Source: Armatimonadota bacterium
Lineage (GTDB): Bacteria; Armatimonadota; Zipacnadia; Zipacnadales; JABUFB01
Assembly: GCA_013314775.1 (NCBI GenBank)
Contig: JABUFB010000005.1
Coordinates: 186,001-250,000 of the forward strand
Length of the DNA stretch: 64,000 bases
Reading direction: 5' to 3'
A program made the position numbers and the translations under genes. The notes under the pieces are model-generated. The model was not told the DNA's origin and searched no databases. It saw only the letters and a list, made by a program, of their open reading frames with translations. Below, piece after piece: positions 54,603 through 64,000 of the stretch. Positions within the stretch are counted from its first letter, which is position 1, and every line of letters starts with the position of its first letter.

Positions 54603-54632
54603 TTGACGAAGGCGGTGTGTCGCGTCTATCCT
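54603..54632 (+). promoter_or_regulatory. Predicted promoter of the dxr operon
   Basis: TTGACG (54603-54608), 18-base spacer, TATCCT (54627-54632), about 60 bases before the start of dxr. Confidence 0.55.
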
Positions 54633-54692
54633 TGCTCGAGTGCATCCGGCTCCGACAGGCCTGAATCCGGCTGGAAACCGGGAGCGAAGCAA

Positions 54693-55862
54693 TTGTCACC
54701 GAGCCCGCGACGGATATACATCTTGGGTTCCACCGGCTCTATCGGCCGACAGACGCTGGACGTTGTGGCGCGCCATCCCGGCGCCTTCGATGTCGTCGGC
54801 CTGGCTGCCGGAACAAGGGTGACCGCGCTCCTCGAGCAGGCGCGAGACCACGGCGTTCGGGCAGTCGGGGTCACAGGTGAGAGTGCGGGCACGGAACTGC
54901 GGGGCGGTGTGTCAGGACTGCAGACTGCCGTGGGCATGGATGAGATCTGTGCCCAGATGGTCTCTCTGAAGCCGGACCTGGTGGTCGCGGCCATGTCCGG
55001 GGTTGTCGGGCTCATACCGGTGATGGCCGCCGTCTCTGCCGGGCTTGACGTCGCTCTGGCCAACAAGGAGCCGCTGGTAGCCGCCGGCGAGCTCGTAACG
55101 GGCACAGCTGCCCGCACAGGCTCCCGCCTCATTCCCGTCGATTCCGAAATCTCCGCCGTGTTCCAGTGTCTTGAGGGGCCGTCCCGCCCATACCTGAAGC
55201 GTGTCCTGCTGACCGCCTCCGGTGGCGCCTTCCGTGACCTGTCGCGGGAGGAACTGGCGCGGGTCACTCCCGAGCAGGCGCTCAATCACCCGACCTGGAA
55301 CATGGGGCCGAAAATAACCGTTGATTCTGCTACACTGGCAAACAAAGGGTTCGAAGTCTTTGAACTCAAGTGGTTGTTTGACCTCGACTTCTCAGACATC
55401 GAGGTCCTCATACACCACCAGAGTATCATTCACTCCCTGGTAGAGTTCGTGGACGGGTCGATCCTTGCCCAGATGAGTCTGCCGGACATGCGCTTTGCGA
55501 TCCAGTACGCTCTCACCTGGCCGGAGCGCGTGGCGTCAGACTACCCGCGCCTGGACCTGGCGCAGGTCGGCAGTCTCACATTCGGACAACCGGATCTGGT
55601 CAAGTTCCCTTGCCTGCGTCTCGCCTTCGACGCCGGCAAAGCGGGCCGCAGTTACCCCGTGGCACTCAATGCCGCCAATGAAGAAGCGGTGGACCTGTTT
55701 CTGTCTCGCAGGATCGGGTTCACGACGATACCTGAACTGGTGGAAAGGGCGCTGGACGAGCATGATCCGGCTGATGTCAAGTCCCTCGATACCGTGCTCG
55801 CCGTGGACGCCGACACACGCAAGCGCGTGCGAGAGTTGGTCAAGAGTGACAGATACGTGTAG
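54693..55862 (+). CDS. dxr: 1-deoxy-D-xylulose 5-phosphate reductoisomerase
   Basis: 389 residues. TTG at 54693 chosen because GGGAG is just upstream and it directly precedes RRIYILGSTGSIGRQTLDVV, the NADPH-binding start; the open frame extends 90 bases earlier. Other sites: ANKEPLVAAGELV, the metal and substrate DSEISAVFQC, and NHPTWNMGPKITVDSATLANKGFEVFE. It makes 2-C-methyl-D-erythritol 4-phosphate in the MEP isoprenoid pathway. Followed by rseP and ispG. Confidence 0.95.
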   Translation: MSPSPRRIYILGSTGSIGRQTLDVVARHPGAFDVVGLAAGTRVTALLEQARDHGVRAVGVTGESAGTELRGGVSGLQTAVGMDEICAQMVSLKPDLVVAAMSGVVGLIPVMAAVSAGLDVALANKEPLVAAGELVTGTAARTGSRLIPVDSEISAVFQCLEGPSRPYLKRVLLTASGGAFRDLSREELARVTPEQALNHPTWNMGPKITVDSATLANKGFEVFELKWLFDLDFSDIEVLIHHQSIIHSLVEFVDGSILAQMSLPDMRFAIQYALTWPERVASDYPRLDLAQVGSLTFGQPDLVKFPCLRLAFDAGKAGRSYPVALNAANEEAVDLFLSRRIGFTTIPELVERALDEHDPADVKSLDTVLAVDADTRKRVRELVKSDRYV

Positions 55863-55907
55863 CTCATTACGAGATGTGGCCGGCGAAGCGGAGGTATCCT
55901 GAACTTC

Positions 55908-57332
55908 ATGGAATGGTTACTCTCGGGGGTGAACTCGGTTCTCGCAATTGGGGTAGTGCTGGGGTTGTGCCTGTTCTTCCACGAGGCGGGCCATTTCATC
56001 GCGGCCAAGGCCTTCCGGATGCGGGTCCACCAGTTCGGCCTGGGCTTTGGCCCTGCCATCTGGAAGCGGCGCATCGGCGAGACACTTTACAGCATCCGTC
56101 TGGCTCCATTGGGCGGCTTCGTGCAGATCGCCGGGATGGATGGCGAGGACCGGAGTGTCCCCGACAGTTTCTACAGCCGGCCCCGTTGGCAGGGCGCCAT
56201 TGTAATCTGTGCCGGCGTTTTCATGAATATCGTGCTCGCGGTTCTCGTATATTGGGCCGTCAACGTGGGCTCGGGCATGCCCATCCCGGGCGACCGCTCC
56301 GTGGTGATACGAAAGGTCTTCAGTGGCGGTCCTGCTGCGTCCGCCGGCATCCAGCCAAATGATGAGATCATCGGGCTGGCTGGAAGTCATCGGTCACTGG
56401 AAGTCACCGATGTCACCGCCGGATCAGTGGGTGACAAGATGGGGCTGCGACCCGGTAGCCGCATCTTCCAGATAGGCGACAAGCCCGTGGCTGTCCCAGC
56501 CGATGTCCTGCGCGTGCTCAGCGCGGGGCTGCCCAAAGGCCACCGTATCTGGGCGGTCAACGGTGAGGCCAAGGGCATCGAAGATGCGGTCATTCCCCTC
56601 AAGGCACCTTCCCCTGACGTGTTTGCCGGCGTGCCGGATAACATCACGAACCCCGAGGCTGACCGTCTGCTGGGGAAACTCCTGGGCGTGCGGTTTGCGC
56701 CCATGGACCAGTTTACCGCGCACCGGTTCATCTCTGCCAGACCCGGTGAGACCATCACTATTTCCATCCTGCGCGGGGACGAGACCGTCAATGTGCAACT
56801 CAAGCTCGCCAGCGACACCGATCGCGTGGAGATGGTGGCGTCTGACGGCAAGCTCACCAGCCCTCACAGGACGGTGGGGCGCATTGGGATCACTCTCGGG
56901 CCGGACGTGAAGCCAACCGGCGTATTCTACGGGCTGCAACTCGCCCTGGTGCAATCGTACAACGCCGTCGCTACAGTGTTCGTGGCCTTCAAGGCGATGG
57001 TACTTGGAAAAATCGCCGCCGAACCCGCGGGCCCCATCGGGATCATGGCGATGACTGCAGAGCGCGCCAAACTGGGCTGGGCATCGGTCTTGTCACTCTG
57101 CGGGCTGATCAGCGCCAATCTCGCGGTCATCAACATGCTGCCCATGCCCCCGTTTGATGGCGGGCATATCCTGCTCATATCTGTTGAATCGGTCCTCAAC
57201 CGCTTCGGGCGGCGACTCGACGAACGATTCGAAATGCTCGTCCGGGTCGCGGGACTTATCATCGTCGTGAACGTCTTCGTCCTGCTCACCTACAAGGACA
57301 TCGCCAATCTCGTGAAGTACGGGACGTACTGA
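55908..57332 (+). CDS. rseP: Site-2 protease RseP (M50 family, PDZ-containing)
   Basis: 474 residues from ATG at 55908 with GGAGG upstream. Zinc motif LFFHEAGHFIAAK, second site MPPFDGGH, and membrane helices before, between and at the end. Two PDZ-like domains: VIRKVFSGGPAASAGIQPNDEI, with DVTAGSVGDKMGLRPGSRIF close after it. It cleaves membrane-bound regulators such as anti-sigma factors. Between dxr and ispG, the conserved dxr-rseP-ispG cluster. Confidence 0.94.
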   Translation: MEWLLSGVNSVLAIGVVLGLCLFFHEAGHFIAAKAFRMRVHQFGLGFGPAIWKRRIGETLYSIRLAPLGGFVQIAGMDGEDRSVPDSFYSRPRWQGAIVICAGVFMNIVLAVLVYWAVNVGSGMPIPGDRSVVIRKVFSGGPAASAGIQPNDEIIGLAGSHRSLEVTDVTAGSVGDKMGLRPGSRIFQIGDKPVAVPADVLRVLSAGLPKGHRIWAVNGEAKGIEDAVIPLKAPSPDVFAGVPDNITNPEADRLLGKLLGVRFAPMDQFTAHRFISARPGETITISILRGDETVNVQLKLASDTDRVEMVASDGKLTSPHRTVGRIGITLGPDVKPTGVFYGLQLALVQSYNAVATVFVAFKAMVLGKIAAEPAGPIGIMAMTAERAKLGWASVLSLCGLISANLAVINMLPMPPFDGGHILLISVESVLNRFGRRLDERFEMLVRVAGLIIVVNVFVLLTYKDIANLVKYGTY

Positions 57333-57341
57333 GGGACCCGT

Positions 57342-58433
57342 ATGGCCCACGCAAGTTCGGCGGACTGGGTTCGCCGACCGACACGCGCGGTGTCGGTCGG
57401 CAGCGTTCTTATCGGGGGTGGGGCTCCCGTCTCCGTTCAGTCCATGACCAAAGCCGACACCGCTGACGTCGACGCTGTGCTCGCGCAGATCAGAGCCTGC
57501 CACGATGCAGGCGCACAGATCATCCGCGTCGCCATCCCCGGCCGCCACGTTCTCGACGGCTTCGCGCGTATCTGCGAACTAAGCCCGCTGCCCGTGGTTG
57601 CAGACATTCACTTCGACCACCGCCTGGCAGTTGAGGCCGCACGCTTGGGCGCTTCCAAGCTGCGGATCAATCCAGGGAATATCGGCGGCGATGATCGCCT
57701 GGGCCCCGTAGTCGAGGCGGCTGCCGCAGCCGGGATCCCCGTGCGCGTTGGTGTGAATGCGGGGTCACTGGAAGCCGATTTGTTGGATCAGTACGGCGGG
57801 CCCACCGCAGATGCCTGCGCCGCCAGCGCCTACCGCAGCGTGGAGCGCATGACCCGCCTGGGGTTCTCGAATCTGGTGGTATCCATCAAGGCGTCCGACG
57901 TCCCGCGCACCGTCCGGGCAAACCAGCTTTTCGCCAAAGACAGCGATCTGCCGCTGCATATCGGCATTACGGAAGCCGGCTTTGGCGAGTCCGGTCTGGT
58001 CAAGTCCGCAGTGGGGTTGGGCGCCTTGCTATCTCGGGGCATCGGGGATACCATACGGGTCTCATTGACCGGCCCCCCGGTGGAGGAAGTGCATGCGGGC
58101 AGGGACATACTCAAGAGCCTCGGACTGCTCTCCGGCCCTGAGCTTGTTTCCTGTCCCACCTGCGGGCGCTGTCGCGTGGATCTTGGCACCCTCGCGAGGC
58201 AGGTCGCCGGGCTCCTGCCCGGCATCGATGATGACATCGTGATCGCCGTCATGGGCTGCGAAGTCAACGGTCCGGGGGAGGCCCGAGAGGCCGACATCGG
58301 CCTGGCCGCCGGCAAGGACCGGGTCACGCTGTTCCGGGGCGGAGACGTCATTCGCTCTGTGCCCTTCGAACAGGCGCTCACTGCTCTGCAGGAAGAACTC
58401 GAGACCTTGCGCTCCGAGCGCAGTCGCGGGTAA
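57342..58433 (+). CDS. ispG: (E)-4-hydroxy-3-methylbut-2-enyl-diphosphate synthase
   Basis: 363 residues, ATG at 57342 nine bases after rseP. The TIM barrel begins VSVGSVLIGGGAPVSVQSMTKADT. Fe-S cluster Cys are in VSCPTCGRCRVDLG and VMGCEVNGPGEAREADIG, as required. Catalyses the reductive ring opening of MEcPP. This is the shorter, bacterial form without the central extra domain. Confidence 0.95.
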   Translation: MAHASSADWVRRPTRAVSVGSVLIGGGAPVSVQSMTKADTADVDAVLAQIRACHDAGAQIIRVAIPGRHVLDGFARICELSPLPVVADIHFDHRLAVEAARLGASKLRINPGNIGGDDRLGPVVEAAAAAGIPVRVGVNAGSLEADLLDQYGGPTADACAASAYRSVERMTRLGFSNLVVSIKASDVPRTVRANQLFAKDSDLPLHIGITEAGFGESGLVKSAVGLGALLSRGIGDTIRVSLTGPPVEEVHAGRDILKSLGLLSGPELVSCPTCGRCRVDLGTLARQVAGLLPGIDDDIVIAVMGCEVNGPGEAREADIGLAAGKDRVTLFRGGDVIRSVPFEQALTALQEELETLRSERSRG

Positions 58434-58496: not shown

Positions 58497-61364
58497 GTGC
58501 GACTGAAAGTCGTTGCCTGTGGAGTGTTCGAGCCCGAACTCACCGCACTTGCGGAAGAGACCCCCAATGAGGTGCACCTGCATTTCCTTGATGCCGGGCT
58601 GCACGCCACGCCGGATCGTCTGCGCATTGAGACCCAGGCGCAGATCGACGCTGCGGTGGGGCAGGGATACGACGGTGTCGTCGCCGGATACGGCCTTTGT
58701 GGACGAGGCACTTCGGGGATACTTGCCGTGGATACCCCTGTCGTCATCCCCCGCGTACACGACTGCATGACTCTCTTCCTCGGTTCCCGCGAGGAGTACC
58801 GGCGCCAGTTCTCGCGGCACCCAGGAACTTTCTACACCACCCCCGGTTGGTACGAAAAGAAGTCCCTGGGGGATCGGCTCAGCGAGTCTCGCAACGAGAC
58901 CCTGGAAGATATTCACAACGACGTGCGATTCCCCGAACTCGCCGAGCGGTTTGGCGAGAGCAATGCAGAGCATATTATCTTCTTCTTCGATAGCTGGAAG
59001 CGCAACTACACTCGCGCCGCGTTCATCGACACCGGCGTCGGAGCCACCGGCCGGTATGAGGATTACGCGCGTCAGATGGCTGAAAGCTTCGGGTGGGAGT
59101 ACGAGCGCATCCCCGGCGACGTATCCCTCTTGCGTGAGATACTGGATGGACGGTGGGACCCCTCCCGTGTCCTCGTGCTGCAGCCCGGCCAGCGTTCGGT
59201 CCTCACTGGAGATGACAGCATCTTCGCCGCCGTGGACGTTCGCTCAGGCCAGGAGGCTACGGCGACCGCCACAGAGCCGGAGCAGCAGCAGGAGTCCGTC
59301 GCCGTTCCGGTTTTCTCGGGTTCATCCTGCACCAGTCCCGGACGCATCGTGCGTCCGAAGCGCAGGGGCGAGCCTCAGCCGTCGCTCACTCCGGGCAGTA
59401 TGCTTGGGCTCGGCATCGACGCCGGCGGCACCTACACTGACTGCGTGCTGTACGATCTCGCGTCGGAGCAGGTCGTGGCGAAGTCCAAGGCGCTCACCAC
59501 CCGCCATGCGTTGATGATCGGGATCGACGAGGCCCTCGACCGCCTGGACATCGCAGACCCATCCCGCGTAGTCCTGGTCGCTCTTTCTACGACCCTCGCC
59601 ACCAACTCAATCGTCGAGGGCAAGGGCGGCATTCCCGGCGCCCTGATCATGTCATCTGCAGTCGGTGGGACGCTGGACCTCGACTGGAAGCATACTCGCT
59701 TCATTGCCGGCCAGATGAGCATCGGCGGCCAGGAACTGGAACCTCCCGATCCCGACCAGATTGCGGCTGCGGTGGACGACCTTCTCGCCTCGGGCGTCGA
59801 CGCCTTCGCGGTCTCTGGCTACTCCAGCGTGAAGAACCCGGCGCATGAGATCCTGGTCCGCGACATCATCCGCCGTCGGTCAGACCTTCCCGTAGTCTGC
59901 GGGCATGAGCTGTCCAGCCGGCTCAATTTCGTGAGCCGCGCCAACACGGCGATTCTCAATGCGCGGCTCATGCCGGTCATTCGCGAGTTGCTCGACGCCG
60001 TTGAGGCCTCACTGCAGCGGCGCGAGATCCGTGGCACGCTCATGGTGGTCAAAGGTGACGGTGCGCTGGTTAACCGCGCCACCGCTCTTGAGCGGCCTAT
60101 CGAGACAATTCTCTCCGGCCCCGCAGCCAGTGTCTCCGGTGCCAAGCACCTCACCGGTCTTTCCGACGCCATCGTCCTCGACATGGGGGGCACCACCACC
60201 GACACCGCAATCATCGAAAACGGGCTGGTCCGCATCAGTCCCGAGGGCGCACGAGTTGGCGGTTGGTTCACCAGTGTGGAGGCAGCCGATATCTCCACCG
60301 TTGGCCTGGGCGGAGACTCTCACATCGACTTCACGGCCGACCGCAAGCTGCTTGTGGGGCCGCGCCGAGTCGTGCCGCTAGCCTATCTCTGCGGCCGGTA
60401 TCCTGAGGCGCGCCGGTTCCTCGAAACCATCGACCCGACCACACAGCAGGAGCGCTCTCGGGCAGCCGCCCTCGACTTCTTCATCCTCGTTCGCCCAGAC
60501 TACCGCGGGCCTTTGAGCGACCGCGAGCAGGCCATCTTGAAAGCCCTGTCTGACGGGCCGTTGTCCCGCAGTATTCTCGCGCTGCGCCTGGGCATCCAAT
60601 CCCCGAGCCTGCTGCGCACGGCCCGGCTCGAAGAACTGGGAATCGTACAGCGCTCCGGCTTCACGCCCACCGACGTCCTGCATGTCACCGGTGAGTTCAG
60701 CGCGTGGGATGCGGAGGCATCGAAACTCGCACTGGATATATTCGCAGGTCTTTACGGAGCCGCTCCTGACGAGGTGATCCGTGCGGTGAAGCAAGCGGTG
60801 GTGGAGCGCCTGGCAGGGCAGATTCTTGCCCGCGAGTTGCCCGACTGGCCCGCTGGCGATCCTGACGGCTGGCCGTCTCTGGTGCACACCGTGTTTCGTC
60901 CGAAACCTGGTGCACACTTGTCTGCGCAACTGGCGTACAAGCGCCCGATTGTCGCTCTTGGGGCGCCGGTGGAGCCTTTTTTCCCGGCGGTTGGCAGCTA
61001 CCTCGGTGCGCAAGTGGTCATTCCACAACACGCTGAAGTGGCCAATGCCATCGGCGCAATTGCCAGCGAAGTTGTGGTGCGCGAGCAGGCGGTCATCCGG
61101 CCCGGTGAAATTGTGAACTTCGTGCTGCACACCCGGGCTGGCCGGTACGAATACGACGACCTGCACGAGGCGATCGAGTCTGCAAAGAGCGAGACAGCCC
61201 AGTTGGCGCATGAACGAGCGCTGCGGTCTGGAACGGCTTCGGCGCAGGTCCGCCATATTGTCAACGAACGGCGGGCGCTTTCGGCAGACGGAGACAATGT
61301 GCTCATCGAGGTTCTCGTCGAGACAACCGTGAGCGGCAAGCCTGAATTGCGGGCGGCCACCTGA
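58497..61364 (+). CDS. DUF1638-hydantoinase/oxoprolinase A fusion with internal winged helix
   Basis: 955 residues from a GTG at 58497. Residues 1-245 are a DUF1638 domain (GYGLCGRGTSGI, VIPRVHDCMTLFLGSREEY, TPGWYEKKSLGDR). A low-complexity linker rich in Ala, Thr, Glu and Gln (about 245-300) follows. From residue 302 a hydantoinase A/oxoprolinase domain with ASKHA motifs begins: GLGIDAGGTYTDCVLYDL, ALSTTLATNSIVEGKG, IVLDMGGTTTDTAII. Residues about 672-735 form a winged helix (LSDREQAILKALSDGPLSRS). Biochemical role unknown; DUF1638 occurs beside corrinoid methyltransferases in some organisms, from memory. 63 bases after ispG. Confidence 0.82.
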   Translation: MRLKVVACGVFEPELTALAEETPNEVHLHFLDAGLHATPDRLRIETQAQIDAAVGQGYDGVVAGYGLCGRGTSGILAVDTPVVIPRVHDCMTLFLGSREEYRRQFSRHPGTFYTTPGWYEKKSLGDRLSESRNETLEDIHNDVRFPELAERFGESNAEHIIFFFDSWKRNYTRAAFIDTGVGATGRYEDYARQMAESFGWEYERIPGDVSLLREILDGRWDPSRVLVLQPGQRSVLTGDDSIFAAVDVRSGQEATATATEPEQQQESVAVPVFSGSSCTSPGRIVRPKRRGEPQPSLTPGSMLGLGIDAGGTYTDCVLYDLASEQVVAKSKALTTRHALMIGIDEALDRLDIADPSRVVLVALSTTLATNSIVEGKGGIPGALIMSSAVGGTLDLDWKHTRFIAGQMSIGGQELEPPDPDQIAAAVDDLLASGVDAFAVSGYSSVKNPAHEILVRDIIRRRSDLPVVCGHELSSRLNFVSRANTAILNARLMPVIRELLDAVEASLQRREIRGTLMVVKGDGALVNRATALERPIETILSGPAASVSGAKHLTGLSDAIVLDMGGTTTDTAIIENGLVRISPEGARVGGWFTSVEAADISTVGLGGDSHIDFTADRKLLVGPRRVVPLAYLCGRYPEARRFLETIDPTTQQERSRAAALDFFILVRPDYRGPLSDREQAILKALSDGPLSRSILALRLGIQSPSLLRTARLEELGIVQRSGFTPTDVLHVTGEFSAWDAEASKLALDIFAGLYGAAPDEVIRAVKQAVVERLAGQILARELPDWPAGDPDGWPSLVHTVFRPKPGAHLSAQLAYKRPIVALGAPVEPFFPAVGSYLGAQVVIPQHAEVANAIGAIASEVVVREQAVIRPGEIVNFVLHTRAGRYEYDDLHEAIESAKSETAQLAHERALRSGTASAQVRHIVNERRALSADGDNVLIEVLVETTVSGKPELRAAT

Positions 61365-61416: not shown

Positions 61417-64000
61417 GTGAAGAAAGAAAGCGACCTCACACCCATGTACCGCCAGTGGGCGCAGGCTAAGCGGGACTATCCCGATGTCCTGCTCCTGTTT
61501 CGCATGGGTGATTTTTACGAGATGTTCGATGAGGATGCCCGGGTGGCATCCGAGGCCCTCGGCCTTACGCTGACCAGCCGCAAGTACTCGGGCGATGAAC
61601 GAATCGCCATGTGTGGAGTGCCGTATCACGCCCTGGACCGATACCTGCGGCAGTTGGTTGCAAAAGGCTTCCGCGCCGCGATCTGCGACCAGGTGGAAGA
61701 CCCGAAATTGGCGCGCGGTCTGGTTCGTCGTCAGGTGACCCGGGTAATCACTCCCGGCACTCTCATGGAGGACGAACTCCTGCAGGGGGCTGACCACAAC
61801 TTCTTGCTCTCCCTGGACGTCGTCGGCGACCGTGCCGGCATCGCGGTGGTGGATGTGTCCACGGGAGACTTTCTGGTCACCGAGATACCCCTTGTCCCGC
61901 GACACACAGCAGGCCCGCAGACGCTGGAATCCGGGCTGGATGGGGGAGACGGCCGATTCCTTGCAGTTGCTGACGAGATTGCCCGCCTGCAGCCCGCCGA
62001 GATACTGGTCGCTTCCGAACTCGCCGAGCAGGATGGAATGGACGCTGTCCTATCGAAAGTAGGGCGGGCGCAGGTGACCACTCTGGACGCTGACCCGACG
62101 GAGTTCCGCTCCGCGAGCAGGCAGCTTCAGGAGTTCTTTGGGGTTGACTCACTGCGTGGATTCGGGTGCCAAGAGATGCCCGCTGCCCAGAGTGCCGCGG
62201 CTCTTGCGCTCCGGTACCTGAAGCAGAACCGCATGGACGCCTTACCGCATCTCACCGGTATCGCGACCTACTCAACAGCGCAGTTCATGGTCATCGATTC
62301 CGCGACCCGCCGGAATCTTGAGCTTGTACGCACCTTGCGCGATAACTCCCGCGACGGCAGCCTCCTGTCGCTCCTTGACCGCACCCTCACACCCATGGGC
62401 GCCCGGCTCCTGCAGCAGTGGCTCCTGCAGCCCTTGCTGGATGTGGACCAGATCTGTCGCAGGCTGGATGCCGTCGAGGCCCTCGTGCAGGACGCAGTCA
62501 TGGCGGAGAGTCTCCGGGGAGCGCTGCGCAGCGTTCGCGACCTTGAACGCCTCACTAACCGCGTCACTGCAGGTACCGCAAATGCCCGGGATTTGTCCGC
62601 TCTCGGCGCAAGCATCGCGTCCGTGCCGGAGGTTATCCGGTCCCTGGCTGCGGGGCGGAGCGGTTCCGCCGAAGACGGCCTCCTCGCAGACCTGCGCGAC
62701 CAACTCGATCCGCTCGAGGACGTTGCCAACCTGATCTCCCGGGCCATCGCAGACGAACCACCCGCCCAAATCACTGAGGGCAACGTCATCCGCGATGGTT
62801 ATTCCGCCGCACTTGATGAACTGCGGGACGCCATGATGAATGGGCGTGAGTGGATCGCACAGCTTCAGGAGAAGGAACGCCGGCGCACGGGGATCGAGAA
62901 GCTCAAGATCGGCTATAACAAGGTTTTCGGGTACTACCTCGAAGTCTCACGCGTCAACACTGATCGGGTGCCTGCAGACTACCTGCGCAAGCAGACCCTC
63001 GTGAACGCCGAGCGCTTCATCACCCCCGAGCTCAAGGAAATGGAGGACAGGATACTCGGCGCGGAGGAGAAGTCCCACGAGCTGGAATATGACCTGTTCT
63101 GCCAGGTGCGCGCACAGGTCGCCGCTGAGGCCGACCGTCTTTTGTCCACAGCCCGCTCAGTGGCCCAACTCGATGTGCTCCTTTCCCTGGCCCGGGTGGC
63201 GGTGGAATACAATTACACCCGCCCGGAGGTTGACAACTCGGACATCGTGGAAATCCGGGATGGCCGCCATCCCGTGGTGGAGCGCACCCAGTTGGCCGAA
63301 GCGTTCGTGCCCAATGACGCCCATCTCGACTGCGAGCATAGCCAGATGCTTATCGTGACCGGCCCCAACATGGCGGGGAAGAGCACGTATCTGCGGCAGG
63401 TTGCGCTCATCTGCCTCATGGCGCAGATGGGCAGCTTCGTCCCCGCCCGGTCTGCGCGCATCGGGGTGCTTGATCGCATCTTCACCCGCGTGGGAGCAAG
63501 CGACGACCTGGCCACCGGCCAGTCAACCTTCATGGTCGAAATGACCGAATCCGCCAATATCCTGCATAACGCCACGGCCCGGAGCCTCATCGTACTGGAT
63601 GAAATTGGCCGCGGGACAAGCACCTTTGACGGCCTGTCCATCGCTTGGGCGGTGGCCGAATATATCGTAAACCAGATCGGCGCGAAGACCCTCTTCGCGA
63701 CCCACTACCACCACCTGAACGAGCTGACTGAGACCGTGCCTCGGGTTCGCAATCTGCGCATTGCGGTCAAGGAGCAGGGGGAAGACATCGTCTTCCTGCG
63801 CAAGATTGTGCCGGGCGGAACCGATCGCAGCTACGGCATACAGGTTGCTCGGCTTGCGGGGCTGCCCCGAGCTGTCATTGAACGCGCGCGGGAGGTCCTG
63901 CACTCGCTGGAACAGGAGGATCTGGGCGCCGGTGTCGCCCCGTCTCGTGACGCTGCGGCGCGAGTGGCCCCGGCGATCCAGTTACAGCTCTTCGAGGCCG
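61417..64000 (+). CDS. mutS: DNA mismatch repair protein MutS, C-terminus beyond window
   Basis: About 861 residues seen, cut at position 64000. GTG at 61417 chosen as it gives KKESDLTPMYRQWAQAKRDYPD; an ATG at 61444 would shorten it by nine residues. Mismatch-binding GMDFYEMF-type site appears as LFRMGDFYEMF; the connector, lever and clamp domains follow; the ATPase has VTGPNMAGKSTYLRQV, VGASDDLATGQSTFMVEM, LIVLDEIGRGTSTFDG and FATHYHHL. It recognises mismatches and recruits MutL. Probably transcribed with the fusion gene 52 bases upstream. Confidence 0.95.
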   Translation, partial: MKKESDLTPMYRQWAQAKRDYPDVLLLFRMGDFYEMFDEDARVASEALGLTLTSRKYSGDERIAMCGVPYHALDRYLRQLVAKGFRAAICDQVEDPKLARGLVRRQVTRVITPGTLMEDELLQGADHNFLLSLDVVGDRAGIAVVDVSTGDFLVTEIPLVPRHTAGPQTLESGLDGGDGRFLAVADEIARLQPAEILVASELAEQDGMDAVLSKVGRAQVTTLDADPTEFRSASRQLQEFFGVDSLRGFGCQEMPAAQSAAALALRYLKQNRMDALPHLTGIATYSTAQFMVIDSATRRNLELVRTLRDNSRDGSLLSLLDRTLTPMGARLLQQWLLQPLLDVDQICRRLDAVEALVQDAVMAESLRGALRSVRDLERLTNRVTAGTANARDLSALGASIASVPEVIRSLAAGRSGSAEDGLLADLRDQLDPLEDVANLISRAIADEPPAQITEGNVIRDGYSAALDELRDAMMNGREWIAQLQEKERRRTGIEKLKIGYNKVFGYYLEVSRVNTDRVPADYLRKQTLVNAERFITPELKEMEDRILGAEEKSHELEYDLFCQVRAQVAAEADRLLSTARSVAQLDVLLSLARVAVEYNYTRPEVDNSDIVEIRDGRHPVVERTQLAEAFVPNDAHLDCEHSQMLIVTGPNMAGKSTYLRQVALICLMAQMGSFVPARSARIGVLDRIFTRVGASDDLATGQSTFMVEMTESANILHNATARSLIVLDEIGRGTSTFDGLSIAWAVAEYIVNQIGAKTLFATHYHHLNELTETVPRVRNLRIAVKEQGEDIVFLRKIVPGGTDRSYGIQVARLAGLPRAVIERAREVLHSLEQEDLGAGVAPSRDAAARVAPAIQLQLFEA

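Follow-up and report, generated by a model that had tools for sequence, protein, structure and literature searches.

A single uninterrupted frame (58497 to 61364, forward strand; 955 residues, GTG start, stop included) joins a DUF1638 domain, through a disordered low-complexity linker, to a hydantoinase-A ASKHA domain with an internal winged helix. This fusion is real and conserved, and is no assembly artefact. It suggests that DUF1638 and the ATPase, a member of the winged-helix hydantoinase-A clade (HydA(wHTH)), work jointly to keep B12 methyl-carrier proteins active. Previous work connects DUF1638 with reactivation of B12-dependent methionine synthase (PMC5764234), and places a "HydA" in betaine clusters (PMC9768040); a search of the open-access literature found no paper on the fusion or on the winged helix within the ATPase. 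As a Rosetta stone, the fusion names a likely ATPase partner and energy source for DUF1638. It also makes directly testable a role for which the DUF1638 authors offered no specific proposal (PMC5764234).

An ATPase with an embedded winged helix

Pfam, an AlphaFold model, and profile matches agree on the three-part layout of the original prediction (DUF1638, linker, and hydantoinase A with a helix-turn-helix), with slightly shifted borders:

58497..61364, + strand: whole fused gene; 955 aa, GTG start (Pfam, fused relatives)
58497..59237, + strand: DUF1638 domain, residues 1-247 (Pfam PF07796 at 30-215; conservation; model pLDDT 88)
59250..59393, + strand: low-complexity disordered linker, residues 252-299 (pLDDT <50; length varies among relatives)
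59409..60365, + strand: ASKHA ATPase core, part 1, residues 305-623 (Pfam PF05378 and PF01968; motif conservation; fold match to acetone carboxylase beta, Z 28.2)
60507..60662, + strand: inserted winged helix, residues 671-722 (within the insert at about 628-722; AlphaFold model, profile matches)
60663..61361, + strand: ASKHA core, C-terminal part, residues 723-955 (FTPTDVLH, GAPVEPFFP; alignment, conservation, fold match)

DUF1638, first drawn at residues 1-245, extends over about 1-247, and its profile (PF07796) matches residues 30-215 far over the cut-off (E 2.2e-39; 135.4 bits against 27; profile positions 1-160 of 161). The helix-turn-helix first placed at 672-735 is a winged helix at about 671-722; residues 723-735 are the TPTD motif of the core. 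Hydant_A_N (PF05378; residues 305-460, E 2.5e-31) and Hydantoinase_A (PF01968; residues 481-623, E 3.7e-33) also score far over their cut-offs. Together with the ASKHA motifs GIDAGGTYTD (306-315), DMGGTTTD (562-569), and GLGGDS (603-608), these matches place the protein in the hydantoinase-A fold family. Alignment of the clade finds the nucleotide motifs GIDxGGTxTD, DxGGTTTD, GLGGDS, and GAP intact and near invariant; judged by these motifs, the hydantoinase-A domain retains an intact ASKHA nucleotide site. The AlphaFold model, built from a 45-row alignment (mean pLDDT 88.5, pTM 0.70), is confident for the DUF1638 and ATPase parts, with pLDDT below 50 at linker residues 252-281 and 289-292. 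Relatives differ in linker length.

Acetone carboxylase beta is the best fold match (Z 28.2, rmsd 4.1 over 517 residues), followed by caprolactamase (Z 20.0), N-methylhydantoinase (Z 18.7), 2-hydroxyacyl-CoA dehydratase activators (Z about 17.7), and diol dehydratase reactivase (Z 15.6); RACo is present among the Foldseek matches. The strongest of these are enzymes, not reactivases, which tells against a corrinoid helper and favors a substrate-level enzyme. In that reading the protein would use ATP for a hydantoinase/lactamase- or carboxylase-like reaction on a methylated nitrogen compound (methylhydantoin, for example, or something creatinine-like) and so feed corrinoid methyltransferases, with DUF1638 as its helper. 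Betaine-fermenting anaerobes have a hydantoinase-A gene, "HydA", drawn in their glycine-betaine methyltransferase clusters (PMC9768040, Fig. 5), which would suit such an enzyme. Several features nevertheless make it unlikely. The protein shares fold, both Pfam domains, and ASKHA motifs with the hydantoinase A/acetone carboxylase beta/5-oxoprolinase family, but differs in its DUF1638 fusion, in an insert for the PGPACYG loop, and in a changed GGAGPLHA motif. The insert, of about 95 residues (about 628-722), lies where ordinary HyuA has a short loop, "GPESAGADPGPACYGKG..PTVTD", and runs into FTPTDVLH; it stands in place of the SAGADPGPACYG loop of ordinary HyuA. The GGAGPLHA motif reads GAPVEPFFP in the fused protein (pattern GAPxxxFxP). 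No HyuB-type subunit is encoded among the neighbours scanned, and the ATPase is tightly tied to DUF1638, whose mutants methionine rescues. Members of the winged-helix clade, usually annotated "hydantoinase/oxoprolinase", are probably not hydantoinases.

Three helices and a strand are modelled at 675-721, a block with pLDDT mostly 89-98. A profile of the insert retrieves Lrp/MarR/ArsR-type chains from the PDB (E down to 0.007). Searched singly against winged-helix Pfam models, 22 members match DprA_WH (15/22) and HVO_A0261_N (13/22), and also MarR, HTH_20, and HTH_24; each match is weak and below the curated cut-off, and the fold class is consistent throughout. Model and profiles together identify a winged helix. 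The original prediction had named, as a finding that would count against it, such residues folding inside the hydantoinase core of known relatives: ordinary hydantoinases have no such element, and one whole clade, fused or unfused, has it throughout.

Likeness to Lrp/MarR-type DNA-binding domains would fit a corrinoid- or ATP-sensing transcription regulator, its winged helix on DNA and its ASKHA and DUF1638 parts sensing the one-carbon state. ROK-family proteins provide a precedent, in that ASKHA and wHTH domains can form a repressor. Such a regulator is nonetheless very unlikely here. The net charge of helix 3 plus wing ranges from -4 to +4, with many members neutral or acidic; no conserved basic recognition helix or wing was found, R719 (29/34) being the only conserved Lys/Arg. 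The winged helix sits inside the ATPase core instead of at a terminus, and is kept there in unfused relatives; Rhodobacterales-type members have a shorter helix 2; and the ATPase motifs are conserved. The DNA-binding or sensing role first imagined for this element thus loses its footing, and a protein contact or lever is likelier than a DNA reader.

Conservation of the fusion

Among the matches listed, about 36 of 291 Armatimonadota genomes, spread over at least 10 families, carry the full-length fusion in a single frame (a count by eye, in which 17 show as a single match and the others as a pair of matches within one frame). These relatives keep the same frame with 46-92% identity along the full length. 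The genome under study (6.1 Mb, 98% complete) has one copy, with uniform GC3 across the DUF1638/hydantoinase join. A draft assembly of 37 contigs and the existence of unfused homologues could hint at chance or artefactual joining of two unrelated genes, or at the frameshift feared in the original prediction; the many fused relatives, on many contigs and in supported clades, together with the even GC3, rule this out for practical purposes. In one relative (G059; L029:1495-4091), the fusion is divided over two frames, owing to a genuine break or to a fault in the assembly.

Beyond the phylum, in Clostridia and Deltaproteobacteria, the two halves are separate neighbour genes, and Armatimonadota also hold unfused members of the winged-helix clade. 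In a tree of 34 winged-helix clade members plus ordinary hydantoinases, the clade stands apart from the latter (support 100/99), and the fused rows among the 34 are monophyletic (100/100). Once remoter members of the phylum are added, the fused or unfused state requires five changes, at least two of them forced by well-supported branches. The halves therefore probably have been joined or split more than once.

The two partners also travel together. DUF1638, fused or elsewhere, is present in 50 of the 52 Armatimonadota genomes with HydA(wHTH), as against at most 119 of the 239 without it, among the matches listed (hand count over 291 genomes, two candidates scored per genome; Fisher p 2e-11 at the 119/239 bound, kinship among genomes ignored). 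Dependence is one-sided, because DUF1638 alone is common in the phylum: the HydA(wHTH) clade goes with DUF1638, not the reverse. The fusion shows linkage of the two, and a mechanism is not thereby given.

DUF1638 and the corrinoid setting

Mutants of Phaeobacter inhibens in a DUF1638 gene and in a RamA-like gene are rescued by methionine (Price et al. 2018, PMC5764234). Both proteins are needed for B12-dependent methionine synthesis in this species, which ties DUF1638 to reactivation of the B12 methionine synthase, although the authors gave no specific mechanism. A Ruegeria DUF1638 homologue goes up on methylated N-osmolytes, and that 2025 study put it with RamA in cobalamin recharging (PMC12478193). 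P. inhibens PGA1_c13340 and Ruegeria SPO2162 belong, like the fused protein, to the PF07796 family, and the setting is common to all: a split, MtgC/MtbC-based methionine synthase with a RamA-like protein. These two proteins stand alone, whereas the Armatimonadota one is fused to the ASKHA hydantoinase-A domain.

Residues C8, H36, C68, D89, and C90 of DUF1638 are invariant in a 16-sequence set that includes stand-alone proteins. In the AlphaFold model they come after strands 1 to 4 of the domain, so by secondary structure they should lie together on one sheet edge. The domain is modelled as a two-lobed, Rossmann-like fold with no clear match in the PDB; the best, allantoin racemase (Z 8.2), is tied with LacI-type binding proteins, and the likeness appears to be a common two-lobed arrangement only. 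The DUF1638 alignment, searched against PDB sequences, gave hydantoinase and HTH matches only, arising from fused rows in the alignment.

Corrinoid genes do occur in the same genome, but elsewhere than beside the fused gene. A single MtgC/MtbC-type corrinoid protein (TIGR02370 over cut-off) adjoins a RamA-like protein. A stand-alone homocysteine S-methyltransferase gene is followed by BtuF/BtuD/BtuC-like genes (the latter named from sequence by eye), and there are a stand-alone methyl-THF:corrinoid methyltransferase-like pterin protein (by eye and by a Pterin_bind match) and seven MttB-type genes. The genome has no MetE, and no complete copy of the MetH activation domain (PF02965), of which only a 39-residue partial match was found. 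Phaeobacter and Ruegeria have a layout of the same kind in their split methionine synthase/betaine demethylase (PMC5764234, PMC12478193). The best Pterin_bind match (C2:64952) is an ordinary dihydropteroate synthase, outside the corrinoid system. In many genomes of the order, frames of about 180-400 aa match the MetH activation profile over some 40 residues, at profile positions 211-250 (for example, G000:C9:440578-440697); these perhaps represent a stand-alone activation-like protein.

The genome also has 79 URO-D (UroD/MtaA/CmuA-like) matches which, with the seven MttB genes, face only one B12-binding_2 corrinoid protein. Apparently either many methyltransferase-like proteins work round one corrinoid hub, or many of the UroD-like proteins are not corrinoid methyltransferases. 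Two UroD genes lie in the window (the whole 64-kb stretch of DNA analysed) and had been taken as support for a corrinoid role; they are uninformative because the genome has 79, with 0.83 expected per 64 kb and a probability of 0.20 for two or more.

The fused gene itself lies between ispG and mutS, in a one-strand run dxr–rseP–ispG–fusion–mutS (flanks 54603-58433 and 61417-63999) that is kept in its own family (L032, L034, L077), not beyond. No corrinoid genes adjoin it in the Armatimonadota loci, where synteny is only local (ispG–fusion–mutS). Stand-alone DUF1638 genes of the phylum can have such neighbours: one adjoins a corrinoid protein and UroD genes (G055), and another occurs with UroD and homocysteine S-methyltransferase genes (G047).

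Outside the phylum, the unfused halves are found among corrinoid genes. A deltaproteobacterium encodes, on one strand, corrinoid–UroD/MtaA–CobW–UroD/MtaA–RamA (Fer2–RACo)–HydA(wHTH)–DUF1638 (L035). The order in a clostridial locus is MttB–HydA–DUF1638–MttB (L036), and in Anaerolineales it is MttB–corrinoid–DUF1638–MttB–HydA–GntR–RamA–EamA–HydA (L038; some members named by sequence cluster with scanned genes). On a Mesorhizobium plasmid, HydA(wHTH) is near a trimethylamine-methyltransferase family gene (MttB) and a glycine-betaine transporter. The "HydA" of betaine fermenters such as strain DCMF (PMC9768040) also belongs to the hydantoinase-A family, and its gene accompanies those of MttB-type methyltransferases and corrinoid proteins; its report contains no DUF1638 fusion, the arrangement seen in Armatimonadota. 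Some other alphaproteobacterial HydA(wHTH) copies have unrelated neighbours and no corrinoid genes. One alphaproteobacterial HydA(wHTH) gene is followed by GATase and glutamate-synthase-domain genes (L040:10713-15169), of the sort that serves N-methylglutamate synthesis, a methylamine route.

A candidate maintenance role

The best explanation, and a reasonably probable one, is that the fused protein is an ATP-dependent maintenance or reactivation accessory of the MtgC/MtbC-type methyl-carrying corrinoid protein, acting beside the RamA-like reductase. Five lines of evidence argue for it: the DUF1638 genetics; the corrinoid context outside the phylum; the split set of the same genome; the co-occurrence with DUF1638 (50/52 versus at most 119/239); and membership of the ASKHA fold class, to which RACo, the 2-hydroxyacyl-CoA dehydratase activators, and diol dehydratase reactivase belong, all of them activators of corrinoid or radical enzymes. 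The first three also support one part of the original prediction, ATP-dependent activation of corrinoid one-carbon enzymes; the DNA-binding or sensing part is not supported. Against the helper role, besides the fold ranking, stand the distance of the fused gene from corrinoid genes within the phylum and the alphaproteobacterial genes that have no corrinoid neighbours. Several near relatives (G018 and G024 among them) also have the corrinoid protein and RamA with DUF1638/HydA not detected, so the latter pair is dispensable for the basic corrinoid system.

The protein would act likewise to RamA/RACo (DUF4445), an ASKHA ATPase that serves corrinoid proteins, but it belongs to a different ASKHA branch. 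It has neither a 2Fe-2S domain nor the RACo C-terminal domain (Pfam searches at E up to 1 gave no PF14574, PF17651, or PF00111), and its genome already holds a separate RamA-like gene. Diol dehydratase reactivase, EutA, and GlmL (MutL) are also ASKHA ATPases that service B12 enzymes, and the fused protein gives a weak PF13941 MutL match (29.9 bits against a cut-off of 27); it is, however, of a different subfamily, and cofactor exchange is putative.

Partner, chemistry, and direction of effect we infer as follows. The ASKHA domain would open and close in an ATP-driven cycle, with the winged helix, in place of the ordinary hydantoinase loop, presumably providing a protein contact or a lever. DUF1638 may have as its ligand the corrinoid, the protein that carries it, or a metal or Fe-S centre. 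ATP-driven motion of this module would bring inactive Co(II) or damaged corrinoid back into use, or else pass on electrons or cofactor; both the split methionine synthase and the MttB/MtaA-type methyltransferases would thereby be kept running.

A broader proposal is advanced more tentatively. RamA/RACo and the MetH activation domain would be joined by a further, so far unrecognised machine for corrinoid maintenance, in which a hydantoinase-fold ASKHA ATPase marked by the wHTH drives the three-cysteine DUF1638 and so repairs or reloads the one MtgC-type corrinoid protein that many methyltransferases share. Strict complementarity with the PF02965 MetH activation domain or with RamA was not seen; RamA and corrinoid protein also occur without DUF1638/HydA. 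In several relatives, a priA-like gene is a conserved neighbour of ramA and the corrinoid gene (for example, L057:12686-15103).
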